From Candidatus Sulfotelmatobacter sp. (GTDB lineage: Bacteria; Acidobacteriota; Terriglobia; Terriglobales; Acidobacteriaceae): a DNA stretch of 43,012 nt. The stretch is from the NCBI GenBank assembly GCA_030038255.1, contig JASHPH010000167.1, positions 1 to 43,012 of the forward strand, given 5' to 3'. The position numbers and the translations under genes are program-made. The notes beneath the pieces were generated by a model, which saw only the letters and a program-made list of their open reading frames with translations, did not search any database and was not told where the DNA came from. Below, piece after piece: positions 22,654-42,947 of this stretch. Each line of letters starts with the position of its first letter. Position 1 is the stretch's first letter.

Positions 22654-22676
22654 AGCCGTGAACCTTTCTCTCTCCC

Positions 22677-27733: not shown

Positions 27734-29083
27734 CTAGGCTACGCCACGGGCCTTGATCGGAGTGGGCGCCAGACCCACAGCATCGCCAGCCATGCTCTGC
27801 GACTCCTTCACCGTACGCGCGGCCAGCGGCTTGAGCCACAGCAGCGCCATAAACGCAGCGATCACATCGCAGGCAATCATGGCCCAGAAAACCTTGGTCC
27901 AAGAGCCGGTCTTCTCGAAGAGCCAGGCAGCGCCGGGAGCGGCAAACAGAGTCGCCAGGCCTTTGGCCGTATAGACCACACCGTAGTTCGTGGTCGCCCA
28001 TTTCTTGCCGAACAGGTCCGCCGTGATCGAGGGGAACAGCGAATAGATGTTGCCCCAGGCGAAGAAACACAGGCCCGACAGGGCGATGAACCAGATCGGA
28101 TGGCTGATTAGCTGCAGCAGTGCGAAAACCGCCGCGGCCTCCAGCATAAACGAAGTGAAGAGGGCGTTCTCCCGCCCGATGTGGTCCGAAATCCATCCCC
28201 AGAAGGGCCGGGTTAAACCATTCAGGAACCGGTCAATTTCAATGGCCAGGGTCAACGCCGTCATGCCAAAAGCAACCACAATTTTGTCCACATGGTAGGA
28301 CTTGGCCATGGGAGCCAGTTGCACGGTGACCACGATGCCGCCGAATGCCAGCATGGTCAGCATCAGGTAAATCACATAGAACGAGGGCTGCGCCAGCATT
28401 TGAATCGGGTTCAGATCCCGGGCCGAAGTTTGCACGCGAGCCTTGACCAGCGCCTCCTTCTCTTTCCAGCCCGGCGGCGTCCAGCCCTCGGGTGGCTTGG
28501 CCAGAAATAGCGCAGCGACTAGGACCACCAGGCCCTGGATTGCGCCCCAGACGAGAAAAGTGTGCTGATAGTTGCTGGCCTTGAGCATGTTTGTAATCGG
28601 AATGATCGTCAGAGCCGTACCCACGCCGTAGGCTCCGGCCGTGAATCCGACGCAAAGGCCGCGGTGATCGGGGAACCACTTCAGTGCGTTGCCAATGGTC
28701 CCGCCGTAGACCATGCCCGCGCCGATTCCGCCGAAGACGCCGTACCAGATGTACAGGCTGTGCATGCTCCCCGCCCAGCCCGCTCCCATCCAGCCGAGGC
28801 CGACGAAGAACGCTCCGATTCCGAGCATGAAGCGTGGACCGATGCGATCCACCAGGTAACCTTCAAACGGCACGAGCCACGTCTCCAGGGCAATAAAAAG
28901 CGTGATCGTCCACTGCACCTCAACCAGGGTTGTGTGCATGTGCTTCTGAATCGGGTCGACGAAAATGGTCCAGGCATACTGCAGGTTGGCGATGGCCATC
29001 ATGGCGAATACGCCAGCCACCAACTGGGCCCAACGATTGACGATGCGGGACGGGTGAATCAGGGAGGAAGCTTGCGTAGCCAT
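27734..29083 (-). CDS. OFA-family MFS antiporter (oxalate/formate type)
   Basis: 449 aa with about 12 membrane segments. The N-terminus RWAQLVAGVFAMMAIANLQY and WTIFVDPIQKHMHTTLVEVQ match the oxalate:formate antiporter branch, as do FEGYLVDRIGPRFMLGIGAF and GGIGAGMVYGGTIGNALKWF. Start ATG 29083 has GGAGGG 6 nt upstream; an in-frame start at 29164 lacks one. Upstream lies an operator (29213-29231) nearly identical to that before the oxalate-oxidoreductase regulator gene, which strongly suggests oxalate (or a related dicarboxylate) import for that pathway. Exchange partner unknown. Confidence 0.88.
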   Translation of the reverse strand: MATQASSLIHPSRIVNRWAQLVAGVFAMMAIANLQYAWTIFVDPIQKHMHTTLVEVQWTITLFIALETWLVPFEGYLVDRIGPRFMLGIGAFFVGLGWMGAGWAGSMHSLYIWYGVFGGIGAGMVYGGTIGNALKWFPDHRGLCVGFTAGAYGVGTALTIIPITNMLKASNYQHTFLVWGAIQGLVVLVAALFLAKPPEGWTPPGWKEKEALVKARVQTSARDLNPIQMLAQPSFYVIYLMLTMLAFGGIVVTVQLAPMAKSYHVDKIVVAFGMTALTLAIEIDRFLNGLTRPFWGWISDHIGRENALFTSFMLEAAAVFALLQLISHPIWFIALSGLCFFAWGNIYSLFPSITADLFGKKWATTNYGVVYTAKGLATLFAAPGAAWLFEKTGSWTKVFWAMIACDVIAAFMALLWLKPLAARTVKESQSMAGDAVGLAPTPIKARGVA

Positions 29084-29212
29084 CAATTGCCCTCCACAAC
29101 GGGGTGGTGGATTTTTTTGACAATGCACTGGCGGATCGCCAGTCCCCAACTGGTTGCGGCTCACTCCGGCGTTGCACCTGGAAGCTGGCCAGCATAAGCA
29201 ATTATGCTAAAC

Positions 29213-29231
29213 TGGTCCGATGAGTGAACCA
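29213..29231. promoter_or_regulatory. GntR-type operator upstream of the OFA antiporter
   Basis: TGGTCC-gatgagt-GAACCA. It differs from the perfect operator at 39074-39092 (TGGTCC-gataagt-GGACCA) at only 2 of 19 positions. On the minus strand a TTGACA at 29272-29267 could serve as -35 box with a start site near 29236, placing the operator just downstream, as for a repressor. Other inverted repeats nearby: AGCATAA/TTATGCT (29191-29208) and GGGTGA/TCACCC (29237-29255). Confidence 0.75.
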
Positions 29232-29321: not shown

Positions 29322-30098
29322 ATGGATCAAACCCTGCAAGCTCATATCGAAACCTACCTGGCACAGCTCGACAGCCTGATTTGCCGCGGACGCGAGCTTC
29401 GTGGCCTCCTGACAGCCGATCCCTCAGATGCATTTGGCGTGACGGCCGTTCGCCTCTGGCAGCAGGATGTTGGCGTCACGGTTAATGAATTATCTGGCGG
29501 CAGCAAAGCCCACTGGCTGGCACGGTCCTTCAGCCAGGCCTTCCTGGTTCGCGCCACCGACGGCGCAGCGGTTGAAGGTGTCGCGCCGGCTGAAATCGTG
29601 ACGCGACTGCTCAGCGTGCTGGAACAGGCTGTCGCCTCGCTGACGCGCAAGGACGCAGTCCCGGTTCTTTCCACATCCGCAGAGCCGCCGGCTCCGCGCC
29701 GCTTCGAGTTCGTGCACAACGCTGAGCTTCGGCCGGTGCTCGAACAGGCTTACACGGAAAGCCGGCGTGCTCTGGAGCACGGACACTTTGACCTGGCGCT
29801 GCGCACGTCTTGCGGGATTCTCGAAGCCATCATCACGGACGCGCTGGAGAAAAAAGGATTGGCTGCGCTCATCGCCTCGGGCGCGCCTGCCGGAAACATC
29901 AGCGATTGGTCGTTCGACACGCGGATTGCCGTCGCGGAGAGGGCCGGTCTGATTCGCAACGGATGTGCTCGCCTGCCGGCGGTCGCCAGAACCTATCGAG
30001 TTGAGAGCGAGCCTGCGCTGCCGGTTTCAGAGCGCGACGCGCGACTGGCGGGACAAGTGCTGAATGTCATCATGAGGGATCTCGACCCGGGACGATGA
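29322..30098 (+). CDS. Hypothetical protein, two-domain helical
   Basis: 258 aa, no signal peptide or membrane segment. An N-terminal region (1-110) is followed by a Pro-rich linker (STSAEPPAPRR) and a helical C-terminal domain containing AYTESRRALEHGHFDLALRT, SCGILEAIITDALEKKGLAA and GQVLNVIMRDLDPGR. The second domain is vaguely reminiscent of HEPN/DUF4145-type helices; this is weak. It is transcribed away from the OFA gene across the operator region, so may share its control. No SD is obvious before ATG 29322. Confidence 0.7.
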   Translation: MDQTLQAHIETYLAQLDSLICRGRELRGLLTADPSDAFGVTAVRLWQQDVGVTVNELSGGSKAHWLARSFSQAFLVRATDGAAVEGVAPAEIVTRLLSVLEQAVASLTRKDAVPVLSTSAEPPAPRRFEFVHNAELRPVLEQAYTESRRALEHGHFDLALRTSCGILEAIITDALEKKGLAALIASGAPAGNISDWSFDTRIAVAERAGLIRNGCARLPAVARTYRVESEPALPVSERDARLAGQVLNVIMRDLDPGR

Positions 30099-30114: not shown

Positions 30115-30432
30115 TCAACCTTCCAAGTCCGCGCGAAACACGGGCTGCGACGGGTCAAGTTTTCCCCGGATTACGGACAGCATCAACTCTCCGTACGCCC
30201 GCGTTGCGTCCGGCAGCAAGCCGTAGCCGCGCTCCCACTGCAGTCCGCCGCCGGAGCCGTAAATCAGAGTGAAGTAACGCCCCGAAGAGTATTGCAGTTC
30301 GAGCAACGCATCGGGCCGATCGGGGTCGCCCTTCTGTCCAAGCACGTCCATGAGCGCAATCGTCCACTTCCGGCCTTTTGGGTCGGTGACGACTTCGCGC
30401 TCCAGGTACTCCCAATCATCCATGCTCCACAT
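30115..30432 (-). CDS. Hypothetical protein (105 aa)
   Basis: Soluble, acidic protein rich in aromatic residues: DDWEYLEREVVTDPKGRKWT, LLELQYSSGRYFTLIYGSGG. No known motif was recognised. ATG 30432 has GGAG 8 nt upstream. It is 49 bp downstream of the single receiver gene at the end of the oxalate-oxidoreductase operon and is probably co-transcribed with it. Confidence 0.65.
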   Translation of the reverse strand: MWSMDDWEYLEREVVTDPKGRKWTIALMDVLGQKGDPDRPDALLELQYSSGRYFTLIYGSGGGLQWERGYGLLPDATRAYGELMLSVIRGKLDPSQPVFRADLEG

Positions 30433-30481
30433 AAAGCAGGCTCCACATCAGACATGCTCCAGAGCGAGATCTCTGTTCCGA

Positions 30482-30847
30482 TCACGCTGCCAGCAACTGG
30501 TTGATCGCCCGGGCGACCTGCGACGCGGTGAACGGCTTGGGGATCAGCAAGACTTTTTCCGCGTTGCGGGCCGCAAGGCTCTCGTCGGCTTCCTCTGGCA
30601 TGTCAGAGATGATCACGATCGGAAGCTGGGCGTGCTTCACTTCCGCGCGCACCATGTCGAACAGCGCTTCACTCATGTCGTAGGCAGAGCAGTCGAGCAC
30701 CAGCGCATCGGCACGCTGCTCCGCAATCAGATCGTTGACGGTGGTGGTATAGCCGGAGGCAGACACTGTGTGGCCAAGGTCGCGCAGTGCAAACGTGAGG
30801 AGTTCGGCAATCTCCGGCGTGTCATCGATGAGCAGGATGCGAGCCAA
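30482..30847 (-). CDS. Single-domain response regulator in the oxalate operon
   Basis: 121 aa if translation begins at TTG 30847, which has a CAGGA upstream and lies 7 bp after the preceding stop; a longer frame to 30976 would overlap the previous gene without an SD. Receiver features: ILLIDDTPEIAELL (D8/D9), acceptor D52 in ADALVLDCSAYDMS, Ser in IVIISDMPEE, Lys in LLIPKPF. No output domain and no kinase gene nearby. Its partner and target are unknown. Confidence 0.8.
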   Translation of the reverse strand: MARILLIDDTPEIAELLTFALRDLGHTVSASGYTTTVNDLIAEQRADALVLDCSAYDMSEALFDMVRAEVKHAQLPIVIISDMPEEADESLAARNAEKVLLIPKPFTASQVARAINQLLAA

Positions 30848-30854
30848 TCCTGCT

Positions 30855-31238
30855 TTATCCTTTGCTGGCGCCGGTGCCCGCCACCGGCAGCCGCGGCTTC
30901 TTGCCTTCGCACCGCTCCAGATCGAGAACCCAAACGCGCCCGCCAGCCGTGTAATAGCCGCGACGGTCGTTTTCAATCATCACGCCCCAGGCTTCGAGCG
31001 TTCGCATCACGAACGTGTAGCCCTCGAAGTTGTTGCGCGTGTGGCTCAGGACTTCATTTGTGTGCCAGTTGTCGGTGAGAATGCCGTCGCCGGGATGGAC
31101 GCGTAGCACGGTGTAGTACTTGTCGAAGGCCGCTTCTGGCCGCACGTCGCGCGTCGCGCCACGCTTCTTGCCTTCGGCGACAATGTAACTCTCCTGTGCT
31201 TCCGTCGGTGTTGCTGGAGCGTTCGGTTGTGTGCTCAT
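30855..31238 (-). CDS. Conserved-looking small protein coupled to the OOR beta subunit
   Basis: 127 aa, overlapping the beta-subunit stop by 4 nt (ATGA), so translationally coupled. A disordered N-terminus is followed by a compact domain: RPEAAFDKYYTVLRVHPGDG, HTNEVLSHTRNNFEGYTFVM and VWVLDLERCEGKKPRLPVAG. No Cys motif for Fe-S binding. It is not a usual PFOR/OFOR subunit. A role as assembly factor or extra subunit is inferred only from position. Confidence 0.75.
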   Translation of the reverse strand: MSTQPNAPATPTEAQESYIVAEGKKRGATRDVRPEAAFDKYYTVLRVHPGDGILTDNWHTNEVLSHTRNNFEGYTFVMRTLEAWGVMIENDRRGYYTAGGRVWVLDLERCEGKKPRLPVAGTGASKG

Positions 31239-32299
31239 ACGGTCTCCGCAATCGCTTCGGCTTCAGCCGCCGCTGCCATGTTGACCTGGTTCTTCGGATC
31301 AGCCGCCTGGATCAACGCTTCCGGCAGCTCGACGCCCATCATCTTCCATTGCTCATTGGCGAACCTCTGCATGTTAGCAATGTGTTCGGCATGCAGGTGG
31401 CCGAATCGTCCTTGCAACTTCAAGTACTCCGAGACCGGCCGAATGTTCTGGGGTCGGAAGCTGTAATCGTATTCGCGCTTCTCCGGGTTCCACTCCCAGA
31501 TCGGATAAAGTCCGCACTCGACCACTACGCGGCCAAGATCAATGGAGCGTGGCGTCTCGTAAACGAATCCCTTCTGGCAGGGCGTGTAGACCATCAGATA
31601 CGCGGCGCCCCTGTGATTCAGGCCCTTGCGAACTTTGTTCATCAGGTCGATCGGATATCCCACGCTTGCCGTCGCGACGTAGCAGTGAGGATGGCCCGCC
31701 GCCATCATGCGCGCCAGATCTTTCGGAAACAGCTTTTTGCCTTCGGGAACTTCCGGCCCAGGAGGCGAGAACGTAGTCATGCCGCCGTAAGGCGTGCGCG
31801 ACGAGGCCTGAATGCCGGTGTTGGCGTACTGCTCATTGTCGTAGCAGATGATCAGGCAGTCGTGGTTGCGATAGAGCGCGCCGGAGATCGAAGCCAGACC
31901 GATATCGGACGCGCTGCCGTCACCGGCTTCGCAAATAATGTTCGGATATTGGCCTTTCCACTTGCCCTTGCGGATCATGGCTTCATACGCCGCGGCCACG
32001 CCCGCGGTAAAACTGCCGGCACTGCCAATCTGCGTGTGCGCCCACGGCACGTTGTAGGGTGTGCACAGATAGGAACTGTTCGCCACGTACATACACCCAG
32101 TCGGCCCGACGAGAATGGTGTTGTCGCCCGCGGCCTTGCTCGTCATGCGGTACTGGATGGAAGGCCCGCAGCCGGCGCAGGTACGGTGGCCGGGCACGAA
32201 CGGCTCCGATGAAGGCAGCTCAGGATTGTAGAAGCGCGCGCCCTGGTTGGGGTTGGCGAGAATCGGCAGTACCTGCCGTTGAACTTCGATGGTTGCCAT
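31235..32299 (-). CDS. Oxalate (2-oxoacid):ferredoxin oxidoreductase, beta subunit
   Basis: 354 aa TPP-binding subunit. Ligands for the proximal [4Fe-4S] cluster are visible: C41 and C44 (RTCAGCG), C69 (TGCMYV) and C241 (TPCQKG). TPP/Mg motif GDGSASDIG (127-135) with YDNEQYANTG follows. It pairs with the alpha subunit encoded upstream, whose YPIRP motif points to oxalate. Start ATG 32299 has AGGAG 8 nt upstream and was preferred to 32338. The next gene overlaps its stop. Confidence 0.93.
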   Translation of the reverse strand: MATIEVQRQVLPILANPNQGARFYNPELPSSEPFVPGHRTCAGCGPSIQYRMTSKAAGDNTILVGPTGCMYVANSSYLCTPYNVPWAHTQIGSAGSFTAGVAAAYEAMIRKGKWKGQYPNIICEAGDGSASDIGLASISGALYRNHDCLIICYDNEQYANTGIQASSRTPYGGMTTFSPPGPEVPEGKKLFPKDLARMMAAGHPHCYVATASVGYPIDLMNKVRKGLNHRGAAYLMVYTPCQKGFVYETPRSIDLGRVVVECGLYPIWEWNPEKREYDYSFRPQNIRPVSEYLKLQGRFGHLHAEHIANMQRFANEQWKMMGVELPEALIQAADPKNQVNMAAAAEAEAIAETV

Positions 32300-32316
32300 A
32301 TCCGTTTCTCCTGTTT

Positions 32317-33525
32317 CTATTCTTCGAATCCCACCCAATGCGTGCGCTTTTCGATTTTGCCACGCTTCTGGGCCTGAATCATTTTTTCGGTCATCCAGTA
32401 GAACTCTTTGAGCACGATTGCTTCACCGCCCATGCCGGCCATGAAAGAAATCACGAGCGGTCGCTCCGGGGCCTCGTACAATGCAGCGCAGACGTCTGCG
32501 TAGAGGACGCCTCCGCTGCTGGGACTGCCCAGTCCCATGTTGGTTTCAATCACGCCGACCACCTTGAACTTGCTGAGAACTTCACACACGCGGTCGGTGG
32601 GATACGGGCGAATCGTGCGCAGCCGCACCATGCCGACCTTCAATCCTTTTTCACGCATGTGCTGGATGGCGAAGCGCGCCGTCACGGCGTGCCCGCCCTG
32701 CAGGAAAAATACGACCTCGGCGTCGTCGGTTTTGTACTCTTCGAGCCACGGGTCATAGTGGCGGCCGAAGATTTCGCCGAATTCCTTGTGCACCTCTTCG
32801 ATCACCGACATGCAGCCTTCCATGGCGCGCGCCCGTTCAAGTTGCAGCGGCGGACCCTGCTCCGGCATGATCTGCGGGCCGTGCGATACCGGATGCCGCG
32901 GATCGAGCGGATAAGGATGTTTGTAGGGCGGCAAAAATTCACGCACCTGGCCTGAGTCGGGCAGTTCCACGTCGCTGGTGATGTGCGAGACGAAGAAACC
33001 GTCTTGGCAGACCATCTGGGGCAGAAGCACGCGCCGGTCCTCGCCGATGCGGTAGGCGATGAGGTGATTGTCGAACGCCTCCTGTGCGTCGCAAGCCCAG
33101 CCCATCAGCCAGCCCATGTCTCGCGTGGAGAGCGCGTCCGTGTGTTCGGAGCCGAAATCGCCCGGCGGATCGAGCGTTCGGTCGGCAATCATCATCTGGA
33201 CGGGCATGCGGCTGCCGGAAATCGGCGAATACAGTTCGTAAGCGAACTGCACGCCCACGCCCGAGCTGCCGGTGAAAACCCGTGCGCCGCTCGACGATGC
33301 GCCGTGTGCGATGCTTAGTTGCGAGTGCTCGCTGTCGGCCACAATGTACTCGGCATCGAGTTCGCCGTTTGCAACCATCTGCGCCAAGGCCATCATGGTC
33401 GCCGTGTAAGGACGGATCGGATAAGCGGCGATCACGTCCACATCGGCGTACTTCGCAGCCTGCGCCGATGCAACGCAGCCATTAATCCGCACGGTTTTCT
33501 TTTTTGCTGCAGTAGGCATTGGCAT
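32317..33525 (-). CDS. Oxalate oxidoreductase, alpha subunit (YPIRP type)
   Basis: 402 aa from ATG 33525 (GGAG 5 nt upstream). Domain I of the OFOR family: VIAAYPIRPYTATMMAL with Arg38 where pyruvate and other 2-oxoacid oxidoreductases have YPITP. In Moorella thermoacetica oxalate oxidoreductase this Thr-to-Arg change supplies an oxalate-binding Arg. The catalytic Glu is in VADSEHSQLS (E66), and a second conserved Arg is in SGSRMPVQ (R106). The enzyme would oxidise oxalate to two CO2 with transfer of two low-potential electrons. It lies between the GltD-delta and beta genes. Confidence 0.92.
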   Translation of the reverse strand: MPMPTAAKKKTVRINGCVASAQAAKYADVDVIAAYPIRPYTATMMALAQMVANGELDAEYIVADSEHSQLSIAHGASSSGARVFTGSSGVGVQFAYELYSPISGSRMPVQMMIADRTLDPPGDFGSEHTDALSTRDMGWLMGWACDAQEAFDNHLIAYRIGEDRRVLLPQMVCQDGFFVSHITSDVELPDSGQVREFLPPYKHPYPLDPRHPVSHGPQIMPEQGPPLQLERARAMEGCMSVIEEVHKEFGEIFGRHYDPWLEEYKTDDAEVVFFLQGGHAVTARFAIQHMREKGLKVGMVRLRTIRPYPTDRVCEVLSKFKVVGVIETNMGLGSPSSGGVLYADVCAALYEAPERPLVISFMAGMGGEAIVLKEFYWMTEKMIQAQKRGKIEKRTHWVGFEE

Positions 33526-33551
33526 GTTCACTCCAATTCTGAATGTCTTTC

Positions 33552-35384
33552 TTAAATTTCCTTCGCTGGGCGGCTTGCCAGGTTCACCAGTTCCTGAGCC
33601 TGCCGTCCGTGGAGTCCGGGGGTGATGGCGAAGGCGGTATCCATGCGCACCACGCCGGTATCGAAGTCGAGTTCAGGTACGCCCTCGAGGCACCCGGTCG
33701 GACACTCCTCGATGCAGACGCGGCATCCCTTGCAGTAGTCGACGATGATCTTGTACAGGCCGTTCGATCGCGCCGGTCGCGTGATGCACGGCTCTGGACA
33801 GACCAGATAACAGTTGTCACAGGCGTTGCAGGTGCCGCAACTGAAGCAGCGCGCAGCCTCCTCGACCGCCTGCTCTTCCGTGAAAGATTGAATGACTTCG
33901 TCCTGCGTCTTCTTGCGCGTGAGCGGGTTGAGCATGCCCTGGTGCACGCGCGGGAAGTGCGGGAAATACGTCATGTTCATGCGGTTCAGATCCATGATGA
34001 CGTCGATGGCGATGGTGCGCGGCTGCAACGGCTCGCCGCGCAGCGCCTTGTCGAGGTTGAAGGCTACGCGCTTGCCGTCGCCCACCGCATTGACGACCAT
34101 CAACGGCTGGCCCGAGCCGAACTGTGCGATGTCGCCAGCGGCGAAGAAATTCGTATTGCCGAGGCGCCCGAAGCGATCGACCTTGATGGTTCCGCGCTCG
34201 TTCTTGAATTCCGCCGGCAGCCAATTCAGTGACGCATGCTGACCGACGGCGATGATCACGTTGTCGACGGCGAATTTCTCCGCGGGCGCGTTGCGATCAA
34301 TGTTGATGGGCGAGGCGTTGATGGCGCCGGAGAAGCGCGCCGGATGCAACTGCAGCGATTCGACCTTGGCGTTGCCCAGAACTGCGGTCATCGCGCGACC
34401 GTGCCACAAGTCGACGCCTTCTTCGAGCATGTCGTGGAGATCTTCGGGCGAGGCCGGCATTTCTTGCGTGTTGGCCTCGACTGTGATCATGGTGACTTCG
34501 ACCGCACCTTGCCGCAGCGCTTCGCGGGCGCAGTCGATGGCCGTGTTGCCGCCGCCAATCACGGCGACGCGCGGCCCCAGCTTCACTTTCGACGTCCCCA
34601 TGCCGATGTCGCGCAGGAAGGGAAGTCCGTAGAGCACGCCTTCTTTGTTCTCGCCTTCGGCGCGCACGCTGTTCGGTTCAGTCAGGCCGACGGCCAGCAC
34701 GCAAGCGTCGTAGTTCTTCTTCAAATCGTCCCAGCTCACGTCTTTGCCAACTTCGGTGTTGGTTTTTATCGTGATGCCGAGCTCGACCAGGCGCTCGATT
34801 TCGCGGTCGAGCACGTGCGGTGGAAGAACCCAGGCGGGAATGCCGCCGCGATTCAACCCACCGGGCTTCGGAGATTTTTCGAGAATCGTTACTTTGTAAC
34901 CCATGCGCGCCAGCTGATACGCGGCGCTGTGACCGGCCGGTCCGGAACCGACCACGGCGACTTTCTTTCCGTTCGGTTTTCCCGGCTTCACCACATCGTG
35001 CTTCAGCGCCTGGCCAAGATCGCCAAGAAAGCGCTCGACCGCGCGGATGGAAATGGCTTCATCGTACTTGCCGCGATTGCAGGCCTGCTCGCAAGGGTGG
35101 TAGCACACACGCCCGGTCACGGAAGGGAAGGGCATGTCTTCCTTGATGAGAGCGTAGGCGTCGAGATATTTGCCGCGCTTCACCAGGTCGAGATATCCCT
35201 GGATTTTTTCGTTGGTGCCGCAGGCATTGTTGCAGGGTGGCAACTTGTCGCGGTAGACGGGCCGGATCGCGCGCCAGTTGCCGGTGGGAAACAGGTTCTG
35301 TCCCTTGTCCTGCGAGGGCGCAGGCGTGATGCCCGCGAACGGGACGGTAAGCCAATCAGGAATTTTTGTGCCTTTGGTCGACAT
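33552..35384 (-). CDS. GltD-like NAD(P)/FAD oxidoreductase fused to delta-type 2x[4Fe-4S] ferredoxin
   Basis: 610 aa. Order: N-terminal Cys-rich helical domain (PPCNNACG, VCYHPCEQACNRG, 49-104), FAD-binding VAVVGSGPAGHSAAYQLA (142-160), NAD(P)-binding VAVIGGGNTAIDCA (273-286), then two [4Fe-4S] motifs near 512-533 (CGTCNACDNCYLVCPEPC) and 551-565 (CKGCRVCIEECP). The C-terminus equals the delta (ferredoxin) subunit of PFOR-type enzymes. This suggests that electrons from oxalate pass to NAD(P)+ within the complex, as KorC is thought to do for the NADP-linked 2-oxoglutarate enzyme of Thauera. AGGAAGG precedes ATG 35384. Confidence 0.9.
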   Translation of the reverse strand: MSTKGTKIPDWLTVPFAGITPAPSQDKGQNLFPTGNWRAIRPVYRDKLPPCNNACGTNEKIQGYLDLVKRGKYLDAYALIKEDMPFPSVTGRVCYHPCEQACNRGKYDEAISIRAVERFLGDLGQALKHDVVKPGKPNGKKVAVVGSGPAGHSAAYQLARMGYKVTILEKSPKPGGLNRGGIPAWVLPPHVLDREIERLVELGITIKTNTEVGKDVSWDDLKKNYDACVLAVGLTEPNSVRAEGENKEGVLYGLPFLRDIGMGTSKVKLGPRVAVIGGGNTAIDCAREALRQGAVEVTMITVEANTQEMPASPEDLHDMLEEGVDLWHGRAMTAVLGNAKVESLQLHPARFSGAINASPINIDRNAPAEKFAVDNVIIAVGQHASLNWLPAEFKNERGTIKVDRFGRLGNTNFFAAGDIAQFGSGQPLMVVNAVGDGKRVAFNLDKALRGEPLQPRTIAIDVIMDLNRMNMTYFPHFPRVHQGMLNPLTRKKTQDEVIQSFTEEQAVEEAARCFSCGTCNACDNCYLVCPEPCITRPARSNGLYKIIVDYCKGCRVCIEECPTGCLEGVPELDFDTGVVRMDTAFAITPGLHGRQAQELVNLASRPAKEI

Positions 35385-35394
35385 GAGTTCCTTC

Positions 35395-36042
35395 CTACAC
35401 AGCCACTGGGTTGAATTGCATGATTTTCATTTCGCTGAGTGCCATTTCAAATGCGTTCTTGTTCGCGATCATGGGCAGGATCGTCTCCATCTTGACGATG
35501 CCCGTGGACTTGACAACTGCTGCGATCAGGGGAGCAGCGATATCGGGAGCGATCAGTTTGCTGCGCTCGGCCGCGCCTTCGGTCGAAAGGCGGTCCAGAC
35601 CCAGTTCGCCCAGCCGGTAATACAGCCACTTGTGGTGCGCCAAGTGGGCCGCGTCTACGCAGACCAGCTGCGCGAGCCGCTCGACCCCGGGCACGAAACG
35701 GAGCATGTACTCAGGCGAATAGTGCGTGTTGATGATGAGCGTTCCGCCGGGAGGCATGCCGCGCATGTAATCCCAGCCTTTGACCATCGTGCCTTCCACC
35801 AGCACGACGATGTTCGGGTGCTCGTTCTCGTAGGTCAGCTCGTTCTCGAGCACCTGGTCGCTCACGCGGCAATATTTGCGCGTAGGCGCGTTCGTGCGGT
35901 CAGGATTGTCCACGTAGTTTTCCATCGCCTGTGCGTACTTGCCTTCCAGGCGAGCTGACGCGGAGACGGAATTGACGATGTCGCGGCCTTCCTTGTCCAT
36001 GATGATGCCGCGCGTCCAAACCGTGAGTTCTGTGTAGCTCAT
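35395..36042 (-). CDS. Oxalate (2-oxoacid):ferredoxin oxidoreductase, gamma subunit
   Basis: 215 aa, the domain III-type subunit. Motifs: VWTRGIIMDKEGRDIVNSVS, RKYCRVSDQVLENELTYENE, VVLVEGTMVKGWDYMRGMPP. It begins the structural part of the operon (gamma, GltD-delta, alpha, beta). Start ATG 36042 has GAGG 7 nt upstream; TTG 36048 is in frame but less likely. The stop is 10 nt before the GltD-delta ATG. Confidence 0.88.
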   Translation of the reverse strand: MSYTELTVWTRGIIMDKEGRDIVNSVSASARLEGKYAQAMENYVDNPDRTNAPTRKYCRVSDQVLENELTYENEHPNIVVLVEGTMVKGWDYMRGMPPGGTLIINTHYSPEYMLRFVPGVERLAQLVCVDAAHLAHHKWLYYRLGELGLDRLSTEGAAERSKLIAPDIAAPLIAAVVKSTGIVKMETILPMIANKNAFEMALSEMKIMQFNPVAV

Positions 36043-36061
36043 ATTCAAACCTCGTCCTGAT

Positions 36062-38320
36062 TCAGGATGTTTGCGGAGCCGAATTGCAATCGGACTGAAG
36101 AACTGCGAGAAAGTCGTTTCTTACAACTGCGAACGGAGCGCCGCGTTTCCTGTCGTGAAATTCAACAATCGCCGCCAGGGTCGCCTTTTTGCAGAGGCTC
36201 TCGATGTCGGCTCCCGTGTACGCGTCCGTGCGCTCTGAGAGTTCTTTGAAGTCGATGTCAGCGGCGAGCGGCACGCGCCGGCAGCAGATCTCGAAGATCG
36301 TCGCGCGCTCTTCGACCGAAGGTTTCGCAAAATGCAGCATGTAATCGAAGCGCCCGCTGCGCAGGAGCGCAGGCTCGATGCGTTCGGGACAATTCGTGGC
36401 GGCCAGCAGAATCACGCCCTTAACGTCGCGCAAGTTGTCGATTTCGCGCAGGAGTTGGCTGAGAATTCTCTGGTAAACGTCGCTGCTGAATTGATCGCCG
36501 CCGAATTTTGGTGCCAACGCATCGATAGTGTCGAAGAACAGAATGCAGGGCGCAGCGCGTCGCGCTTTCTTGAAAACCTCCCGCAACGCGCGTTCGGACT
36601 CGCCCAGCCACTTCGAATAGAGCTGCGGGCCGTCGATGGCGATGAGCGGAAGTTGTTTCTGGCCCGAGAGTGCCCGCGCCATCGCCGTTTTGCCCGTGCC
36701 CGACGGACCCACGAGCAGAATTCCGCGCGGCGGCTCTAAGCCGAGGTGCTCATAAATTTCAGCTCCGAGATGCGAGTGGTCGACGACCGATTCGAGCATC
36801 CGCTTCACTTCGGAAAGCCCACCGAGGGAGGCGAACGTGGACGAACTCTTCTCGATGAAAAATTCACGCGTTGCGCTGGGCTCGACTTCCTTCAGGCCCG
36901 CGAGAAAATCGTCGCGCGTCACTTGCAACGTCCCGAGATCGGCCAATGCACCCTCCGACTCGAGCGGGCAAACTGACAAAAAGTTTCGCAGCGCGATCAT
37001 GCCCACTTCCTGGCAGAGAGCTTCCAGATCGGCGCCGACAAAACCGTGCGAGTGCTCTGCGATCTCGCGCAGGTCAACGTCGCTCGCCAGCGGCATGGCG
37101 CGAGTGTGAATCTTGAGAATCTGTAACCGCGCCTGCGAATTCGGAACCCCAATCTCGATTTCGCGGTCGAAGCGGCCCGGACGCCGCAGGGCAGGGTCGA
37201 GCACTTCCGGAATATTGGTCGCACCAATGACGACGACCTGGCCGCGGGCGACAAAGCCATCCATCAGGCTTAAAAGCTGTGCGACGACGCGCTTCTCCAC
37301 TTCGCCGCTGACCTCGGCCCGTTTGGGAGCGACGGCATCGATTTCGTCGATGAAAAGAATCGCGGGTGCCCGACGAGCCGCTTCCTCGAAAACCTCGCGC
37401 AGCCTGGCTTCGCTTTCGCCATAAAACTTGCGCATGATCTCCGGGCCGTTCAGGTGAATGAAATGCACGCGACTTTCCGCGGCCACGGCTCGGGCGAGCA
37501 GCGTTTTGCCCGTGCCGGGCGGCCCATAGAGCAGAACTCCCTTGGGCGCGAGGATCCCCAGCCGCTCGAAAACCTGCGGGAACTTGAGCGGCAGTTCAAC
37601 CATTTCGCGCACGCGTCCGACTTCGCGCTCGAGTCCGCCGATATCTTCGTAGGAAACCGCGGGAGCGCGCGCTGCAGTCTGATCGCCCTCGACCACGCGG
37701 ATGTCGGTGCGCTTGCCGATTACAACCGGCCCGGAAGGGATAGTGCGCACGACTTGAAAATTCACTGCTTTGGCAAACGTGGGCACGCGCACCACGCAGC
37801 CGGCAATGACGGGAACTCCGTCGAGATCTTCGAGCATGCGCTCGGGTGCAATCATTGCGGGAGCGGCGCCCACCCACAGCGGCGAGAGGCGAACCGCGAC
37901 CGCCTGCTGCGATTCGACTGGAGTGACGGTGACTTGCTCCTGCAGTCCCGCACCGCAATTGCTGCGGCAGGTACCATCGATTCGGATCATGCTTTCGTGG
38001 CTGTTGTCGCCGGCCTCGATGCGTCCCACGGCATTGGCGCTGCCGGTGATCTTGACGATGTCGCCGGGACGAACTTCCAGGCGCCGAAGGTCTGCCGGGG
38101 CCAGCCGTGCGATCGCGTGACCGACGTCCTCCACGCAAGCTTCAGCCACGCGCAGCAGGATAGTTGCCGCCGGAGTCCAATGCTCGGCGCGAGGCGTCGC
38201 GGCCTCACGAGGAAGATCGTTCTCGAATTCGGTCACTTCGGATACCCCAGACGGTGCTTGCGGCCGCACTTCCCGGAGCGGCCACATTCCCCATAGTTCT
38301 ACTCGTAAAGGATCGCCCAC
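36062..38320 (-). CDS. Cdc48/VAT-type AAA+ ATPase with degenerate second Walker B
   Basis: About 752 aa. A Cdc48-type N-domain (about 53-215: LRVAEACVEDVGHAIARLAP, RLEVRPGDIVKITG) precedes two AAA+ modules. D1: Walker A GPPGTGKT (266-273), Walker B ILFIDEIDA (E326), pore KFYGESE. D2: Walker A GPSGTGKT (538-545), pore KWLGESE, but Walker B is ILFFDTIDA, with Thr598 replacing the catalytic Glu. D2 may bind but not hydrolyse ATP. Translation may start at GTG 38320 or ATG 38287; no good SD is seen for the former. Located 26 bp after the regulator gene and 20 bp before the gamma gene; it may remodel or assemble the oxidoreductase. Confidence 0.9.
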   Translation of the reverse strand: MGDPLRVELWGMWPLREVRPQAPSGVSEVTEFENDLPREAATPRAEHWTPAATILLRVAEACVEDVGHAIARLAPADLRRLEVRPGDIVKITGSANAVGRIEAGDNSHESMIRIDGTCRSNCGAGLQEQVTVTPVESQQAVAVRLSPLWVGAAPAMIAPERMLEDLDGVPVIAGCVVRVPTFAKAVNFQVVRTIPSGPVVIGKRTDIRVVEGDQTAARAPAVSYEDIGGLEREVGRVREMVELPLKFPQVFERLGILAPKGVLLYGPPGTGKTLLARAVAAESRVHFIHLNGPEIMRKFYGESEARLREVFEEAARRAPAILFIDEIDAVAPKRAEVSGEVEKRVVAQLLSLMDGFVARGQVVVIGATNIPEVLDPALRRPGRFDREIEIGVPNSQARLQILKIHTRAMPLASDVDLREIAEHSHGFVGADLEALCQEVGMIALRNFLSVCPLESEGALADLGTLQVTRDDFLAGLKEVEPSATREFFIEKSSSTFASLGGLSEVKRMLESVVDHSHLGAEIYEHLGLEPPRGILLVGPSGTGKTAMARALSGQKQLPLIAIDGPQLYSKWLGESERALREVFKKARRAAPCILFFDTIDALAPKFGGDQFSSDVYQRILSQLLREIDNLRDVKGVILLAATNCPERIEPALLRSGRFDYMLHFAKPSVEERATIFEICCRRVPLAADIDFKELSERTDAYTGADIESLCKKATLAAIVEFHDRKRGAPFAVVRNDFLAVLQSDCNSAPQTS

Positions 38321-38346
38321 AGACGCGACCGTTTACGTGATCAAAC

Positions 38347-39060
38347 TCAATACTGCACTTCGTGCAGAACGATCTCTTCGACGTCCTCAATATGCCGGCG
38401 CATCGCGGCCTTCGCGGCTTCCGCGTCGTGACGCTTGATTGCGGCCAGAATGCGACGATGTCCGGCGATCGACTTCTGCGGGCGCCCTTCGACCTGCAGG
38501 CTGCGCTCGCGCGTCTCGCGGAGCAGATCCATCAGAATGTCGAGCACCTTGAGAACAACGCTGTTGCCCGACGCCATGGCGACAGCATAGTGAAACTCGG
38601 AATCTTCAGGGATAGTGCTTTCGCCCTTTCGCAGTTTCGCTTCCTGCCGGTCGAGGATATCTTCCATCTCCGCGATCTCGTCTGGAGAGGCGTGCGTGGC
38701 GGCACGGGCGGCGAGCGGCGGTTCTAGGATGCGGCGAAAATCAAGCAGTTCGCCCATCAGTTCCTCTTTGCGCTTCAGGGCATTGGCCAGCGGGTTGGCT
38801 ACGGAATTGGGAGTGATTTCGCGAACGATCGTACCCGCGCCCTGCCGCGGCTCAACCATACCCATCAGTTCCAGACTACGAATTGCGTCTCGAATGGAAC
38901 TGCGGCTTACGGAGAGTGTTTCAGCCAACTCGCGCTCGGAAGGCAATTTATCGCCGGGGCGCAGTTTCTTGAGAATCAGGCGCTCGATTTGCCGCGCAAC
39001 GTCTTCGTAGACTTTGTTCCGGCGGATGATCTCGAAGTTGGAGTTGAGCGCCAAGGGCAT
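38347..39060 (-). CDS. FadR-type GntR transcriptional regulator (FCD domain)
   Basis: 237 aa. N-terminal winged HTH: YEDVARQIERLILKKLRPGD, KLPSERELAETLSVSRSSIR, RQGAGTIVRE. C-terminal all-helical FCD domain with metal/ligand residues in DFRRILEPPLAARAA, DSEFHYAVAMASGN and GHRRILAAIKRHDAE. Start ATG 39060 was chosen because a longer frame to 39093 begins inside the operator. The family responds to small carboxylates, so oxalate, glyoxylate or a related acid is a natural guess. A palindromic operator just upstream implies autoregulation; the same site precedes the OFA gene. Confidence 0.92.
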   Translation of the reverse strand: MPLALNSNFEIIRRNKVYEDVARQIERLILKKLRPGDKLPSERELAETLSVSRSSIRDAIRSLELMGMVEPRQGAGTIVREITPNSVANPLANALKRKEELMGELLDFRRILEPPLAARAATHASPDEIAEMEDILDRQEAKLRKGESTIPEDSEFHYAVAMASGNSVVLKVLDILMDLLRETRERSLQVEGRPQKSIAGHRRILAAIKRHDAEAAKAAMRRHIEDVEEIVLHEVQY

Positions 39061-39073
39061 GGAGAACTCAAAG

Positions 39074-39092
39074 TGGTCCGATAAGTGGACCA
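39074..39092. promoter_or_regulatory. GntR operator upstream of its own gene
   Basis: TGGTCC (39074-39079) gataagt GGACCA (39087-39092) is a perfect inverted repeat, of the TGGTNxACCA type used by FadR-family regulators. It lies 14 bp before the regulator ATG, between promoter and gene. The copy at 29213-29231 differs at two positions. Confidence 0.8.
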
Positions 39093-39094
39093 CA

Positions 39095-39171: not shown

Positions 39172-40167
39172 TCAGGCAGGCTCCGCGGCTCGAGCGGCAG
39201 CGAGGCTCGACTGTCCCAGCAACTTCGCGCAATGGTAGACCATCCGCGTATGAGGCATCGCAACGCCCACTTTCTCGCCCAACTCTACGACTGAACCCAC
39301 GAGCGCTTCAAGTTCCATTGGGCGTCCGGCCTCGAGGTCCTGCAACATTGACGTTTTGTGCTCGCCAACTTTTTCTGCGCCAGCCATTCGCTGGTCGATG
39401 GAAACGGGTAGTTCTATTCCTAGCTTGTGTGAGACCGCTTCCACTTCGAGCATGATGTTCCGGATCACGTCGGCCACGCCGGGGTCGCGCAGCATCTGGG
39501 CAAGAGTGGCGCGGGTGAGCGCACTCACCGGATTCAGCGAGGCATTCCCCAAAATCTTGACCCAGATTTCCTGCCGCAGACGAGCGCTGACGGGACAACG
39601 CAGGCCGGATGCCACCAGTGCTTCCGCGATTTTGCGGCAACGCTCGGAGCGCGCGCCATCCGGCTCGCCGAGAGAAATGCGGTTGCCCTCGGTGTGTTGA
39701 ATTACTCCGGGCGCAACAATTTCAGTAGAAAAGTAGACAATCGAACCGACCACGCGGCGGGCTTCGATCGCGTTCGAAATTACACCCCCGGGGTCGATGC
39801 GCTCGAGGCGCAGACCGTCCCACGGACCGCCGAATCCGTCGAAGTACCACCAGGGAATTCCGTTCTGTGTGCTGACAACGGTCGTGTCGGGACCGAGCAC
39901 CGGCTTTAACTGAGACGCAAGCTGGGGAAGGCTGTGCGCCTTCACGCCCAGAAAGACCACGTCCGCCGGTCCGGCTTCTTCGAGCGATGCGATGATGCGA
40001 GGCCGCGCCTGGAAGGTTTCCTCCGCGCTTCGGACCTCAACGCCATGCTCCTGCATGGCCTTCAGGTGAGGACCGCGCGCAAACAGACTCACGTCGAATC
40101 CGGCGCGGGCCATGCGCGCGCCGATGTAAGCGCCGATTGCCCCTGCGCCCGCAATCAGGAACTTCAT
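39172..40167 (-). CDS. Ketopantoate-reductase-family NADP oxidoreductase
   Basis: 331 aa. N-terminal Rossmann motif MKFLIAGAGAIGAYIGARMA, then VFLGVKAHSLPQLA and VVSTQNGIPWWYF; catalytic Lys/Asn region WVKILGNASLNPVSALT in the helical domain. PanE/ApbA-type enzymes reduce 2-oxoacids such as ketopantoate; the GIPWWYF variant and location suggest another small 2-oxoacid. ATG 40167 overlaps the CoA-ligase stop (ATGA), so the two are co-translated. No other pantothenate gene is present. An assignment to pantothenate synthesis is possible but not favoured. Confidence 0.88.
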   Translation of the reverse strand: MKFLIAGAGAIGAYIGARMARAGFDVSLFARGPHLKAMQEHGVEVRSAEETFQARPRIIASLEEAGPADVVFLGVKAHSLPQLASQLKPVLGPDTTVVSTQNGIPWWYFDGFGGPWDGLRLERIDPGGVISNAIEARRVVGSIVYFSTEIVAPGVIQHTEGNRISLGEPDGARSERCRKIAEALVASGLRCPVSARLRQEIWVKILGNASLNPVSALTRATLAQMLRDPGVADVIRNIMLEVEAVSHKLGIELPVSIDQRMAGAEKVGEHKTSMLQDLEAGRPMELEALVGSVVELGEKVGVAMPHTRMVYHCAKLLGQSSLAAARAAEPA

Positions 40168-41687
40168 GCGTCGATATCCAGCAGAGCGGCCGCTACAGCC
40201 CGGCGACGAATCTTCCCGGTGGCGGTGGTGGGAATGCTGGTCACCAGATAGATCTTCTTCGGACACTTGTATTCCGCCAGGCACTCGCGGCAATGCTTCA
40301 ACAGATCTTTTTCGGTTGCGCCGTGCCGATCATGCAGCACGACAGCCGCGGCTATCTCCTCGCCCAATGTGGGATGCGCGAACGGGAAAGTAACGGCCGC
40401 CGCAACCGCGGGATGCTTGAGCAAAATCTCATCGACTTCATGCGGTGCCACATTTTCTCCGCCGCGGATGATGATGTCTTTAATGCGGCCGGTTAGGTGC
40501 AGGTAGCAGTCCTCGTCGAGAAATCCTTCGTCGCCCGTGCGAAACCATCCGCGGATCATCGCGCGCGCATTGGCCTCGGGATTGTTCTCGTATCCGCGAA
40601 ACACGCTGGCCCCTTGAATGGCAATTTCTCCCCGCTGATTCACGCCGAGTTCAGTGCCGTCTTTGTCCATGACGGTGATGCGAATGCCCGTGCCCACGCC
40701 TACCGAGCCCGCCTTGCGATGCCGCGGAGGCAAGGGATTCGAAGTCATCTGATGGGAGGCTTCGGTCATTCCGTACGCTTCAACAAACGGCACGCCGAAG
40801 ATGCCCTCAATTTTGTGAATCAGTTCAGCAGACAAAGGCGCGCTGCAGGAACGGATGAAGCGCAGCGTTGCCGCTTCCGGCAGCTTGTGGTGAGTGCGCG
40901 CCAACAGCACCTGATGCATGGTGGGCACTCCCGAATACCACGTCACGTGATGTTCGCGCACGGTTTTCCAGAAGGTAAGCGCATTGAACTTCGTAGGCAC
41001 AACGAGCTTGCCGCCGGAGAGCAACGTGGACATGGCGGAGCCGATCAAGCCATGAACGTGAAACAGCGGCATGATGCACAACGAGACATCGTCCTCCGAA
41101 AGCGCATAGGTATTGGCGATGTTCGCGGCCGACACGGCCAGGTTGAAATGACGCAAGGGCACGCGCTTCGGGCGCCCAGTGCTGCCACTGGTGTGCAGCA
41201 CTAGGGCAATGTCGTCGGGAGTCGGCTCAACGGCCTTCGCTCCCGAGGGAGCATCGATCAGGTGAGCCACACCCTTGTCGGTCATCCCGACCTCGAGGAT
41301 AGGAATCTTCAGGTCCGTCGCGGCGCTGCGGACGAAATTCGCGCCGGCCGGCGGGCAAAGCAACAACTTTGCTTCGGTGTCGCGGAGGAAAAACAAAAAT
41401 TCTTCGTACGGATAAGCTGGGTTCAACGGCGCGGCCGTCCCGGCAATGGATGCGGCCAGAAAGCTCACGATGGCTGGCAGTCCGTTGGGCAGTGCGATCG
41501 CCACCCGGTCTCCACGGCGAATGCCGGCAGAGGCTAAGGCGTCCGCCATCGCCAGAACCTGCTCACGCAACGAATCGTAGGTGACGAAGATTTCAAGTTC
41601 GGGGACGGCGATTGCAACGTGACTATCCGCGAAATGCAAAACGTCGAGCAGCGTTGTTACGGATTTCAGGGTGAGTTTGGTAGACAT
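40164..41687 (-). CDS. Acyl-CoA synthetase, oxalyl-CoA synthetase (AAE3/Pcs60) type
   Basis: 507-aa adenylate-forming enzyme. AMP-binding motif LVLHTSGSTGRPKRVPL, LFHVHGLIGSAMSTL, FIRSCSAPLSAELI, VEAYGMTEASHQMTSNPLPP, and C-terminal GRIKDIIIRGGENVAPHEVD with catalytic Lys in TATGKIRRRA. From memory, RSCSA, MTEASH-MTSNPLP and LNPAYPYEEFLFFL closely follow plant AAE3 and yeast Pcs60, which activate oxalate to oxalyl-CoA. The oxalate-focused neighbourhood agrees. GAGGA precedes ATG 41687. Neither oxalyl-CoA decarboxylase nor formyl-CoA transferase is in the window. Confidence 0.88.
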   Translation of the reverse strand: MSTKLTLKSVTTLLDVLHFADSHVAIAVPELEIFVTYDSLREQVLAMADALASAGIRRGDRVAIALPNGLPAIVSFLAASIAGTAAPLNPAYPYEEFLFFLRDTEAKLLLCPPAGANFVRSAATDLKIPILEVGMTDKGVAHLIDAPSGAKAVEPTPDDIALVLHTSGSTGRPKRVPLRHFNLAVSAANIANTYALSEDDVSLCIMPLFHVHGLIGSAMSTLLSGGKLVVPTKFNALTFWKTVREHHVTWYSGVPTMHQVLLARTHHKLPEAATLRFIRSCSAPLSAELIHKIEGIFGVPFVEAYGMTEASHQMTSNPLPPRHRKAGSVGVGTGIRITVMDKDGTELGVNQRGEIAIQGASVFRGYENNPEANARAMIRGWFRTGDEGFLDEDCYLHLTGRIKDIIIRGGENVAPHEVDEILLKHPAVAAAVTFPFAHPTLGEEIAAAVVLHDRHGATEKDLLKHCRECLAEYKCPKKIYLVTSIPTTATGKIRRRAVAAALLDIDA

Positions 41688-41789: not shown

Positions 41790-42947
41790 CTAGATGGAAT
41801 AGCCCTCCGCCTTCAAAGCCTTCTTAAACTCGGCCAAGAAGAACTGCAGATTTTCTTCCGTAGCCAGTGGCCCCATGACGCCGATACGAAAGACCTTGCC
41901 TGCCAGCGGCCCGAATCCGCCGGCGATTTCGATGCCCGGACTTTCCAGCAGCCGTTTGCGCACTTTGCCGTCATCCACGCCATGCGGAACCAGCACCGTG
42001 TTCAACGTGGGAATGCGGTGAGACGCGGGAACGTGCATGCTCAGTCCCATGGCTTCAATCTCGCGCACGAAAAATTTGTGGCAGCGGCGATGACGCTCCC
42101 AGCGATTTTCAATGCCCTCTTCGGCAATCACGAGCAGCGCTTCGCGCAGGGCGTAGAACATCGAGATAGGAGCGGTGTGGTGGTAGCGGTGGGAAACGGT
42201 AGAGTAATCGTGAATCAGCTTGAGATCCAGATACCAGCTGCGCGGCGATGTGGCGCGGGCGCGCAGCCAATCCATCGCTCGCTGCGACAGCGCCATGGGC
42301 GACAAGCCCGGCGGGCAGCTCAGCCCCTTTTGGGTGCAGCTGTAAGCGATGTCGATGCCGGTGCGATCAAACTCAACCGGCAATCCGCCGAGTGAGGTCA
42401 CGCAGTCAGCGATCACCAGAGCGCCGGCATCGTGAGCCGCAGCGCAGATCGCTTGTCCTTCCTGCAATGCACCCGTTGAAGTCTCGGCGTGGACATAGCC
42501 CACTACGGCCGGTTTCTCGCGACCAATAAACTCTGATGCCTCGGAATCGCTGAAAGTTTCTCCCCAGGCCTTCTCGAATCGCACCACATTGGCGCCATTG
42601 CGCTTGGCCATTTCCGTCAGGCGATCGGAGAAATATCCATTCGCGAACACGGCGAACTTTGTTCCCGGCACGACAAAGTTGGCGACACTGGCTTCCATGC
42701 CCGCACTGCCCGTGCCGGAAATCACCAGCGTGGACCCGCTCCTGGTTCCAAATGGCGTCTTGAGTAGCTCCTGCACGTCCTGCATCACCTCGATGAAGTA
42801 CGGGTCCAGATGTCCGACGATCGGTTTCGAGAGCGCCAGGTAGACGCGCGGGTCGACCATCGTCGGCCCGGGACCAAAAAGATAGCGGATCGGCGGTTTC
42901 AGAGGAGCAAACAGATCGCGTGCAGAAGGTTGTGAGATGGTACTCAT
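41790..42947 (-). CDS. Alanine/serine-glyoxylate aminotransferase (class V)
   Basis: 385 aa PLP enzyme. Start YLFGPGPTMVDPRVYLALSK, GTGSAGMEASVANFV, VHAETSTGALQ, DCVTSLGGLPVEFD, and the PLP-Lys in YSCTQKGLSCPPG follow the AGXT/serine-pyruvate group. It would convert glyoxylate to glycine using Ala or Ser. GAGG lies 5 nt before ATG 42947. First visible gene of the minus-strand series; only 65 bp of upstream DNA remain, containing a GGAGG/CCTCC inverted repeat (43001-43007 region). Confidence 0.9.
   Translation of the reverse strand: MSTISQPSARDLFAPLKPPIRYLFGPGPTMVDPRVYLALSKPIVGHLDPYFIEVMQDVQELLKTPFGTRSGSTLVISGTGSAGMEASVANFVVPGTKFAVFANGYFSDRLTEMAKRNGANVVRFEKAWGETFSDSEASEFIGREKPAVVGYVHAETSTGALQEGQAICAAAHDAGALVIADCVTSLGGLPVEFDRTGIDIAYSCTQKGLSCPPGLSPMALSQRAMDWLRARATSPRSWYLDLKLIHDYSTVSHRYHHTAPISMFYALREALLVIAEEGIENRWERHRRCHKFFVREIEAMGLSMHVPASHRIPTLNTVLVPHGVDDGKVRKRLLESPGIEIAGGFGPLAGKVFRIGVMGPLATEENLQFFLAEFKKALKAEGYSI

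Follow-up and report, generated by a model that had tools for sequence, protein, structure and literature searches.

The minus strand of a 43,012-nucleotide stretch of acidobacterial DNA (hereafter the window) carries an operon that, to judge from its sequence, probably encodes a thiamine diphosphate (ThDP)-dependent oxalate oxidoreductase (OOR) with a changed electron-exit module, accompanied by an oxalate/formate (OFA) antiporter gene, a putative shared operator and a predicted branch for oxalate assimilation. This stretch corresponds to contig C313 of a metagenome-assembled genome (MAG) of 5.1 Mb, 94.8% complete and 5.2% contaminated, whose nearest relatives are Candidatus Sulfotelmatobacter, and the GC content of the window is 55-61% throughout. 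The kinship of the alpha and beta subunits, the loop residues, the domain anatomy, the synteny and the operator are read directly from the sequence. A first-pass annotation had already named the enzyme an OOR; this reading is supported, but it was incomplete: the NAD(P)/FAD subunit, the predicted oxalyl-CoA branch upstream and a sister clade with the same YPIRP motif had escaped notice. The naming of alpha is not new, because NCBIfam already gives the OOR name to such sequences; new are the NAD(P)-flavoprotein variant, its proposed two-branch oxalate regulon in soil Acidobacteriota, and the sister YPIRP class.

Kinship of the oxidoreductase subunits

The subunits with counterparts in the solved OOR, and the two motifs of alpha, are located as follows.

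32317..33531, minus strand: OOR alpha subunit (404 amino acids), type A (from NF045791, PDB chain 5c4i_A and the clade with Moorella OOR)
33409..33423, minus strand: YPIRP motif of alpha, residues 37-41; Arg40 corresponds to Moorella Arg31 (from the alignment)
33151..33180, minus strand: RTLDPPGDFG of alpha, residues 118-127; Arg118, Asp121 and Asp125 correspond to Moorella Arg109, Asp112 and Asp116 (from the alignment)
31235..32338, minus strand: OOR beta subunit, likely start ATG at 32299 (from 5c4i_C, NF045792 and the tree)
35395..36048, minus strand: 'gamma', a gene of its own for the N-terminal portion of OOR delta (from 5c4i_B and NF045790)

The YPIRP motif had been placed at residues 35-39 of alpha, which is correct when counting from an ATG two codons into the GTG-started open reading frame (residues 37-41 of the latter). 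Alpha passes the curated OOR-alpha cut-off (NF045791, 582.7 bits against 500), and its best match in the Protein Data Bank (PDB) is the Moorella thermoacetica OOR chain 5c4i_A (510.8 bits; next 241.2), to which it is 57.4% identical over 390 aligned residues. Equivalents of Moorella Arg31, Arg109, Asp112 and Asp116 are all present, including Asp112, which we take to have a role in OOR alpha as well. Passages of PMC5020499 describe YPIRP as a unique motif created by Arg31 of Moorella OOR, identify Arg109 as the conserved Arg, and assign Arg31 and Asp116 to a 'bait and switch' mechanism. The best PDB matches of beta (5c4i_C, 392.7 bits; next 202.7) and of gamma (5c4i_B residues 13-210, 152.9 bits; next 35.4) are chains of the same enzyme, so that YPIRP is not a chance motif; the full-length scores and the trees likewise rule this out. 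The identification of the enzyme as an OOR is thus well supported at the sequence level.

We reconstructed trees of alpha (55 rows) and beta (34 rows) from hand-picked sequences. Neither subunit fell within a pyruvate or 2-oxoglutarate clade: the window alpha grouped with Moorella OOR (support 100/99), a sister class that we call type B joined this group (type A plus type B, 100/100), and the YPITP rows lay outside. The beta tree agreed, type A and Moorella OOR grouping with 100/99 support and the YPITP rows again outside. Note that the solved enzymes in these trees are a single OOR and a single four-subunit pyruvate:ferredoxin oxidoreductase, that the program warned of long branches, and that the tree labels 'PFORlong' and 'KGOR' (L002, L003) have no analysis behind them. 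In an alignment of 132 alpha rows (stretches of at least 800 bases; L107 is unaligned), Arg31 is combined with Asp116 in 60 rows (49 distinct sequences; type A including Moorella) and with Ala116 in 27 (18 distinct sequences; type B), while two, L042 and L056, do not span the motif. Among the 60, two rows from one genome have YAIRP (the actinomycetotal L047 and L102) and one has RALDPPGDFG, the remainder having YPIRP and RTLDPPGDFG. Three plasmid records were also considered as further copies and rejected (33.5-35.0% identity; two carry pyruvate or 2-oxoacid enzyme annotations and one has no annotation there).

Flavoprotein and predicted electron exit

Gamma, flavoprotein, alpha and beta are contiguous on the minus strand, as the first-pass annotation had described, but the protein that it called a ferredoxin-type subunit proves to be a flavoprotein carrying a ferredoxin domain at its C-terminus.

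33552..35384, minus strand: 610-residue GltD-like flavoprotein for flavin adenine dinucleotide (FAD) and NAD(P), with a Fer4_20 N-terminus and a C-terminal two-cluster ferredoxin domain (from NF009410 and motifs in 42 rows)
33684..33848, minus strand: C-terminal ferredoxin domain of the flavoprotein, residues 513-567 (corresponding to about residues 259-315 of Moorella delta)

The flavoprotein matches Fer4_20, a pyridine-nucleotide-disulphide domain and, at its C-terminus, 4Fe-4S domains. Its best NCBIfam family is NF009410 (507.5 bits, just below the cut-off of 516), which an actinomycetotal homologue passes (528.1 bits). The closest solved chains are named molybdopterin oxidoreductase, NfnA and formate dehydrogenase, and further solved relatives are dihydropyrimidine dehydrogenase subunit A and Nfn chains. 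Moorella delta is one chain of 315 residues, of which residues 13-210 match the window gamma and about 259-315 match the C-terminus of the flavoprotein. Unlike in the solved Moorella enzyme (PDB 5c4i, 5exd, 5exe), which the window enzyme resembles in its alpha/beta clade, YPIRP, Arg109, switch-loop sequence and N-terminal part of delta, the ferredoxin domain is therefore not fused to delta; it sits on the FAD/NAD(P) flavoprotein, which is not among the solved chains. Since Moorella OOR and type B keep this domain on delta, the split of delta with fusion of the domain to the flavoprotein looks derived, as far as the few lineages at hand allow the comparison.

Because the flavoprotein has FAD and NAD(P) motifs together with the ferredoxin domain found on delta in Moorella, the window enzyme probably makes NADH. 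Glycine motifs and cluster cysteines are kept over 42 aligned flavoprotein rows (41 distinct; coverage at least 93% and free of stops). All 42 also have Glu where the GltD-like proteins 9bov and 9n5u have an Arg of an Arg-Arg pair. Glu at this pyridine-nucleotide motif favours NAD and Arg-Arg favours NADP, so NAD is the predicted acceptor. The oxalate/CO2 potential is far below that of NAD, which makes NAD reduction by oxalate feasible. The arrangement is stable among the 52 type A loci from Acidobacteriota and Actinomycetota: the gene directly upstream of alpha is that of the flavoprotein in all 47 loci that extend at least 700 bases in this direction, gamma is likewise upstream in all 43 that extend at least 2700 bases, and beta lies downstream of alpha in 44 of 45. 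For nine operon genes, a set without gntR, the ratio of nonsynonymous to synonymous substitution (dN/dS) against up to seven relatives was 0.02-0.18.

Putative shared operator, antiporter and predicted oxalyl-CoA branch

On the minus strand the order of transcription is aminotransferase, acyl-CoA ligase, PanE-family reductase, GntR/FCD regulator, CDC48-like ATPase, gamma, flavoprotein, alpha, beta, a 127-amino-acid protein, a receiver-domain protein and a 105-amino-acid protein, with the OFA antiporter further on. The regulatory, transport and upstream features are as follows.

38347..39093, minus strand: GntR/FCD regulator, likely start ATG at 39060 (from family matches)
39074..39092, minus strand: putative operator TGGTCCACTTATCGGACCA before gntR (from the pattern match and relatives)
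29213..29231, minus strand: putative operator TGGTTCACTCATCGGACCA before the OFA antiporter gene (from the pattern match and relatives)
27734..29164, minus strand: OFA antiporter (from TIGR04259)
39172..40170, minus strand: PanE/ApbA-family reductase, candidate oxalyl-CoA reductase (from families and synteny)
40164..41687, minus strand: acyl-CoA synthetase, candidate oxalyl-CoA synthetase (from PDB 6qjz and 5ie0)
41790..42947, minus strand: alanine/serine-glyoxylate aminotransferase-like protein (from PDB 1vjo and PF00266)

The first-pass annotation had linked the antiporter to the operon by a shared operator. The link itself stands, with a 19-base putative operator (TGGTYC-N7-GGACCA) 13 bases 5' of the likely gntR start and again before the antiporter gene, both with 0 mismatches, although that gene lies outside the segment 30115..39060 to which it had been assigned. 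Two matches in the window compare with 0.09 expected in shuffled sequences; because the pattern was written from these two sites, its recurrence in relatives is the independent evidence. Among the loci of relatives, 110 sites with at most two mismatches were found (copies of one record being counted apart), of which 70 are near a query gene (35 gntR, 24 antiporter and 11 others), and the operator also precedes gntR of type B operons (e.g. L087, L092). The antiporter passes TIGR04259 (458.2 bits against 335) and also the L-lactate transporter model NF049980 (325.4 against 320).

For the acyl-CoA ligase, the top PDB matches are the oxalyl-CoA synthetase 6qjz (424.1 bits) and the oxalate-CoA ligase 5ie0 (409.9 bits); among the 25 of 109 matching NCBIfam families that were listed, there was no oxalate model and none was over its cut-off. 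The PanE-like protein passes general PanE subfamily models only. Methylobacterium has an oxalyl-CoA reductase (PanE2) route, and by this precedent and synteny we infer that the PanE-like protein is a candidate oxalyl-CoA reductase. In both systems a PanE-family reductase stands beside oxalate genes; in the window, in contrast to Methylobacterium, a protein related to plant oxalyl-CoA synthetases would carry out the activation and OOR would supply the energy. EC 1.2.1.17 appears in passages of PMC12927642. The best PDB match of the aminotransferase is the alanine-glyoxylate aminotransferase 1vjo (357.3 bits).

Taken together, the genes suggest the following scheme, in which the substrate, NAD rather than NADP or ferredoxin, the repression and the assimilation branch are predictions. 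Oxalate would enter via the OFA antiporter, and alpha and beta, as a ThDP enzyme, would oxidise it without CoA to two CO2. Electrons would pass from the [4Fe-4S] cluster of beta to the two clusters on the C-terminus of the flavoprotein, rather than of delta, and on through FAD to NAD+. In parallel, the oxalyl-CoA synthetase, the PanE-like reductase and the glyoxylate aminotransferase may turn some oxalate into glyoxylate and glycine for biomass. The GntR/FCD protein would govern its own operon and the antiporter gene through the shared operator, probably as a repressor released by oxalate or an oxalate product.

Known oxalate catabolism by Frc and Oxc resembles this scheme in breaking down oxalate with an OFA transporter, but neither Frc nor Oxc was over its curated cut-off in any of the 12 genomes searched, the window genome (G000) included; in the latter the best Oxc match had 182.5 bits against a cut-off of 739.4, and Frc had no match at 1e-30. 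Acidobacteriota are not free of other oxalate routes, since passages of PMC10192776 report acidobacterial sequences among its oxalotrophy genes. Of eight genomes examined, all had COX1-type matches (haem-copper oxidase genes; five in the window genome) and none, including the host, had a CdhC match at 1e-10; the host thus differs from Moorella, the anaerobic acetogen from which OOR is best known, and an acetogen host was rejected.

Sister class, occurrence and interpretation

Type B is a three-gene set consisting of delta with its ferredoxin domain, alpha and beta, in which YPIRP is kept and Ala replaces Asp116. YPIRP with RALDDPGAFG occurs in loci L061-L068, L109-L116 and L153-L163. Two sets in tandem with type A are located as follows.

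L012:3813-7333, plus strand: type B set of the gntR-to-OFA slot
L007:2694-6206, plus strand: type B set of the gntR-to-OFA slot

L164 duplicates the record L012. The set also occupies the gntR-to-OFA slot in L087, L093 and L175; in L093 it stands behind ligase and PanE genes like those of the window, and in L175 behind aminotransferase, ligase and PanE genes, so that the operon is that of the window with the other enzyme in place. Among 18 type B rows longer than 9 kb, 17 have a gntR match and 15 an OFA match, and the flavoprotein is found in three tandem rows (two records) only, with none found in the 15 non-tandem loci of this length. Neither gntR nor OFA was matched in the short actinomycetotal loci L109-L116 (about 4.1 kb), nor in L061, L062, L066, L091, L094 and L095. 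At 1e-8, none of the NCBIfam matches of the L012 type B set is over its cut-off (alpha has 374.1 bits where 500 are required, beta 330.3 where 590 are, and delta 98.1 where 230 are), and the alpha of this set is 42.4% identical both to Moorella alpha and to the window alpha. Because type B replaces type A inside the same regulon, the oxalate reading is strengthened for both types.

A scan with exact peptides of the window alpha, which did not return Moorella and is uninformative on distant relatives, gave 52 loci. Of these, 46 are from records named Acidobacteria (80-98% identity in the best segment, Candidatus Sulfotelmatobacter first), five are from Actinomycetota (63-65%) and one, L048, is from a bin named Myxococcales (87%). 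Alpha was over its cut-off in 4 of 396 sampled Acidobacteriota, in 15 of 300 genomes of the family of the window (the two samples share genomes), and in 3 of 396 genomes from Actinomycetota, the phylum of G397, two of the three being known beforehand. Type B was found by score and motif in 8 of 396 genomes in each of the two phylum samples, and by score in 24 of the 300 family genomes (17 alone and seven with type A, five of these seven checked by gene content). The operon is found repeatedly in Acidobacteriota, and some Actinomycetota have its core of four genes. The isolate names are mostly soil, palsa and bog with a few from groundwater, and these mostly soil and peat MAGs agree with the first-pass description of a soil bacterium. 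The L048 locus has much of the acidobacterial operon besides its alpha, and may reflect transfer between phyla or mis-binning.

The remaining genes near the oxidoreductase set are as follows.

36062..38320, minus strand: CDC48-like double AAA ATPase, optional operon member (from family matches; absent or a remnant in some relatives)
30855..31238, minus strand: conserved 127-amino-acid protein directly 3' of beta, without a family match
30482..30976, minus strand: response-regulator receiver domain protein, conserved in the operon (from PF00072 and relatives)
30115..30432, minus strand: conserved 105-amino-acid protein, without a family match over cut-off (from relatives)
29322..30098, plus strand: conserved 258-amino-acid protein whose gene diverges from that of the antiporter, with no family over its cut-off (from relatives)

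The CDC48-like gene lies between gntR and gamma, where relatives variously lack it, have type B, or keep a remnant (63 codons at L006:7285-7476), and an essential part for it was rejected on this ground. The 127-amino-acid protein has 42 invariant columns among 31 sequences and could be an assembly factor or small subunit. The 258- and 105-amino-acid proteins are kept beside the antiporter and OOR genes in relatives. A second MFS transporter (26308-27621, plus strand), whose best families are sialate and aromatic acid symporters with none over cut-off, adjoins the OFA gene in several relatives too, and a chemotaxis cluster (CheB, CheR, MCP and CheA by best NCBIfam match; 18251-24335, minus strand) lies near the oxalate genes.

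Several observations weigh against the proposed reading. Beta and gamma/delta stay under the cut-offs of their best families (NF045792, 444.8 bits against 590; NF045790, 176.1 against 230), the latter in part because the ferredoxin domain has moved off delta. Of the 110 operator-like sites, 40 are away from any query gene, and the pattern has five matches (four places) in the whole genome, as many as a backward control, so that only position and conservation speak for the operator. The OFA, PanE and acyl-CoA ligase families include members with other substrates, the neighbours are variable and the CDC48-like gene optional, and the dN/dS values are rough, many dS exceeding 1. The preference for NAD hangs on one motif read by general rules. 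In actinomycetotal loci the clearly shared genes are limited to gamma, flavoprotein, alpha and beta, with OFA-like matches of 22-25% identity in two; oxalate neighbours were not seen in the available stretches of actinomycetotal type B loci and a few others. Gene absences are provisional, given the completeness and contamination of the MAG.

The reading as a pyruvate or 2-oxoglutarate:ferredoxin oxidoreductase whose motif has its Arg by chance is refuted on present evidence. These enzymes belong to the same superfamily, and PorABCD-type pyruvate oxidoreductase (9bt4 and YPITP relatives) has the same four-domain gene set, but it has YPITP, another loop and a separate, fully supported position outside the YPIRP clade, with alpha 34.4% identical to that of the window. 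The window alpha fails PorA_Arch (342.7 bits against 550), and the same genome has four further, lower-scoring alpha-like matches, one in a 1216-amino-acid frame with YPITP (L002). We give little credence to a different small dicarboxylate or 2-oxoacid (mesoxalate, oxaloacetate, glyoxylate or phenylglyoxylate) as the substrate, although specificity is not readable with certainty from sequence. PadEFGHI, the NADH-dependent phenylglyoxylate dehydrogenase, likewise joins a 2-oxoacid oxidoreductase core to an NAD-reducing flavoprotein, and NCBIfam family names reflect this NAD-linked type. However, alpha and beta reach 255.7 and 179 bits against PadG and PadI cut-offs of 700 each, the loop RTLDPPGDFG is the same as in Moorella OOR, and oxalate antiporter and oxalyl-CoA synthetase-like genes are nearby. 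Neither clades nor cut-offs support a pyruvate, 2-oxoglutarate or phenylglyoxylate identity.

A more serious rival, which we nevertheless consider unlikely, is an ordinary ferredoxin-linked OOR whose true product is low-potential ferredoxin, the flavoprotein being a ferredoxin:NAD(P) or bifurcating (NfnL-like) partner. The flavoprotein is akin to NfnA and NfnL chains, and the ferredoxin domain stays on delta in Moorella OOR and in type B, whose 15 non-tandem loci over 9 kb showed no flavoprotein. Against this, the counterpart of the Moorella delta ferredoxin domain lies, among the scanned operon proteins, on the flavoprotein, which suggests direct transfer, and no NfnS-like partner was named among the families listed for the operon proteins (the genome was not searched for one). 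Returning to the oxalate:NAD+ reading, type B fills the same slot in related genomes and two records have both types in tandem, so that a single regulon could feed NAD-linked and ferredoxin-linked OORs. We lean slightly towards the joint proposal that soil Acidobacteriota and some Actinomycetota respire oxalate by an oxalate:NAD+ oxidoreductase instead of Oxc/Frc, with one regulon feeding both kinds of OOR, and that type B is a second OOR class outside every curated model tested.

The first-pass statement that this ability is known mainly from acetogens fits the literature passages, including a review that knows OOR from Moorella (PMC11045627, in part), except that passages of the survey PMC12654022 report OOR subunits by BLASTp in three probiotic strains while calling OOR an enzyme of certain anaerobes. 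Passages of surveys of oxalate-eating microbes omit OOR (PMC8062136) or use oxc, frc, oxdC and oxlT as markers (PMC10192776), and in a passage of PMC5986945 OOR is one possible pathway. In the passages of open-licence PMC literature we found no description of an acidobacterial or NAD-linked OOR; other literature may hold one.

Oxalate, a plant and fungal acid, is common in soil. If the proposed reading is true, Acidobacteriota would have a CoA-free, NADH-yielding oxalate route missed by markers of the oxc/frc/oxdC/oxlT type, a single regulator would control the two enzymes that share the energy and carbon of oxalate between them, and 2-oxoacid oxidoreductases would have an exit module that can be exchanged. 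Type B would further test the 'bait and switch' model for Moorella (as given in passages of PMC5020499), because it keeps Arg31 and lacks Asp116. Soil microbes with the operon would then live on oxalate in a way that has so far gone unrecognised.

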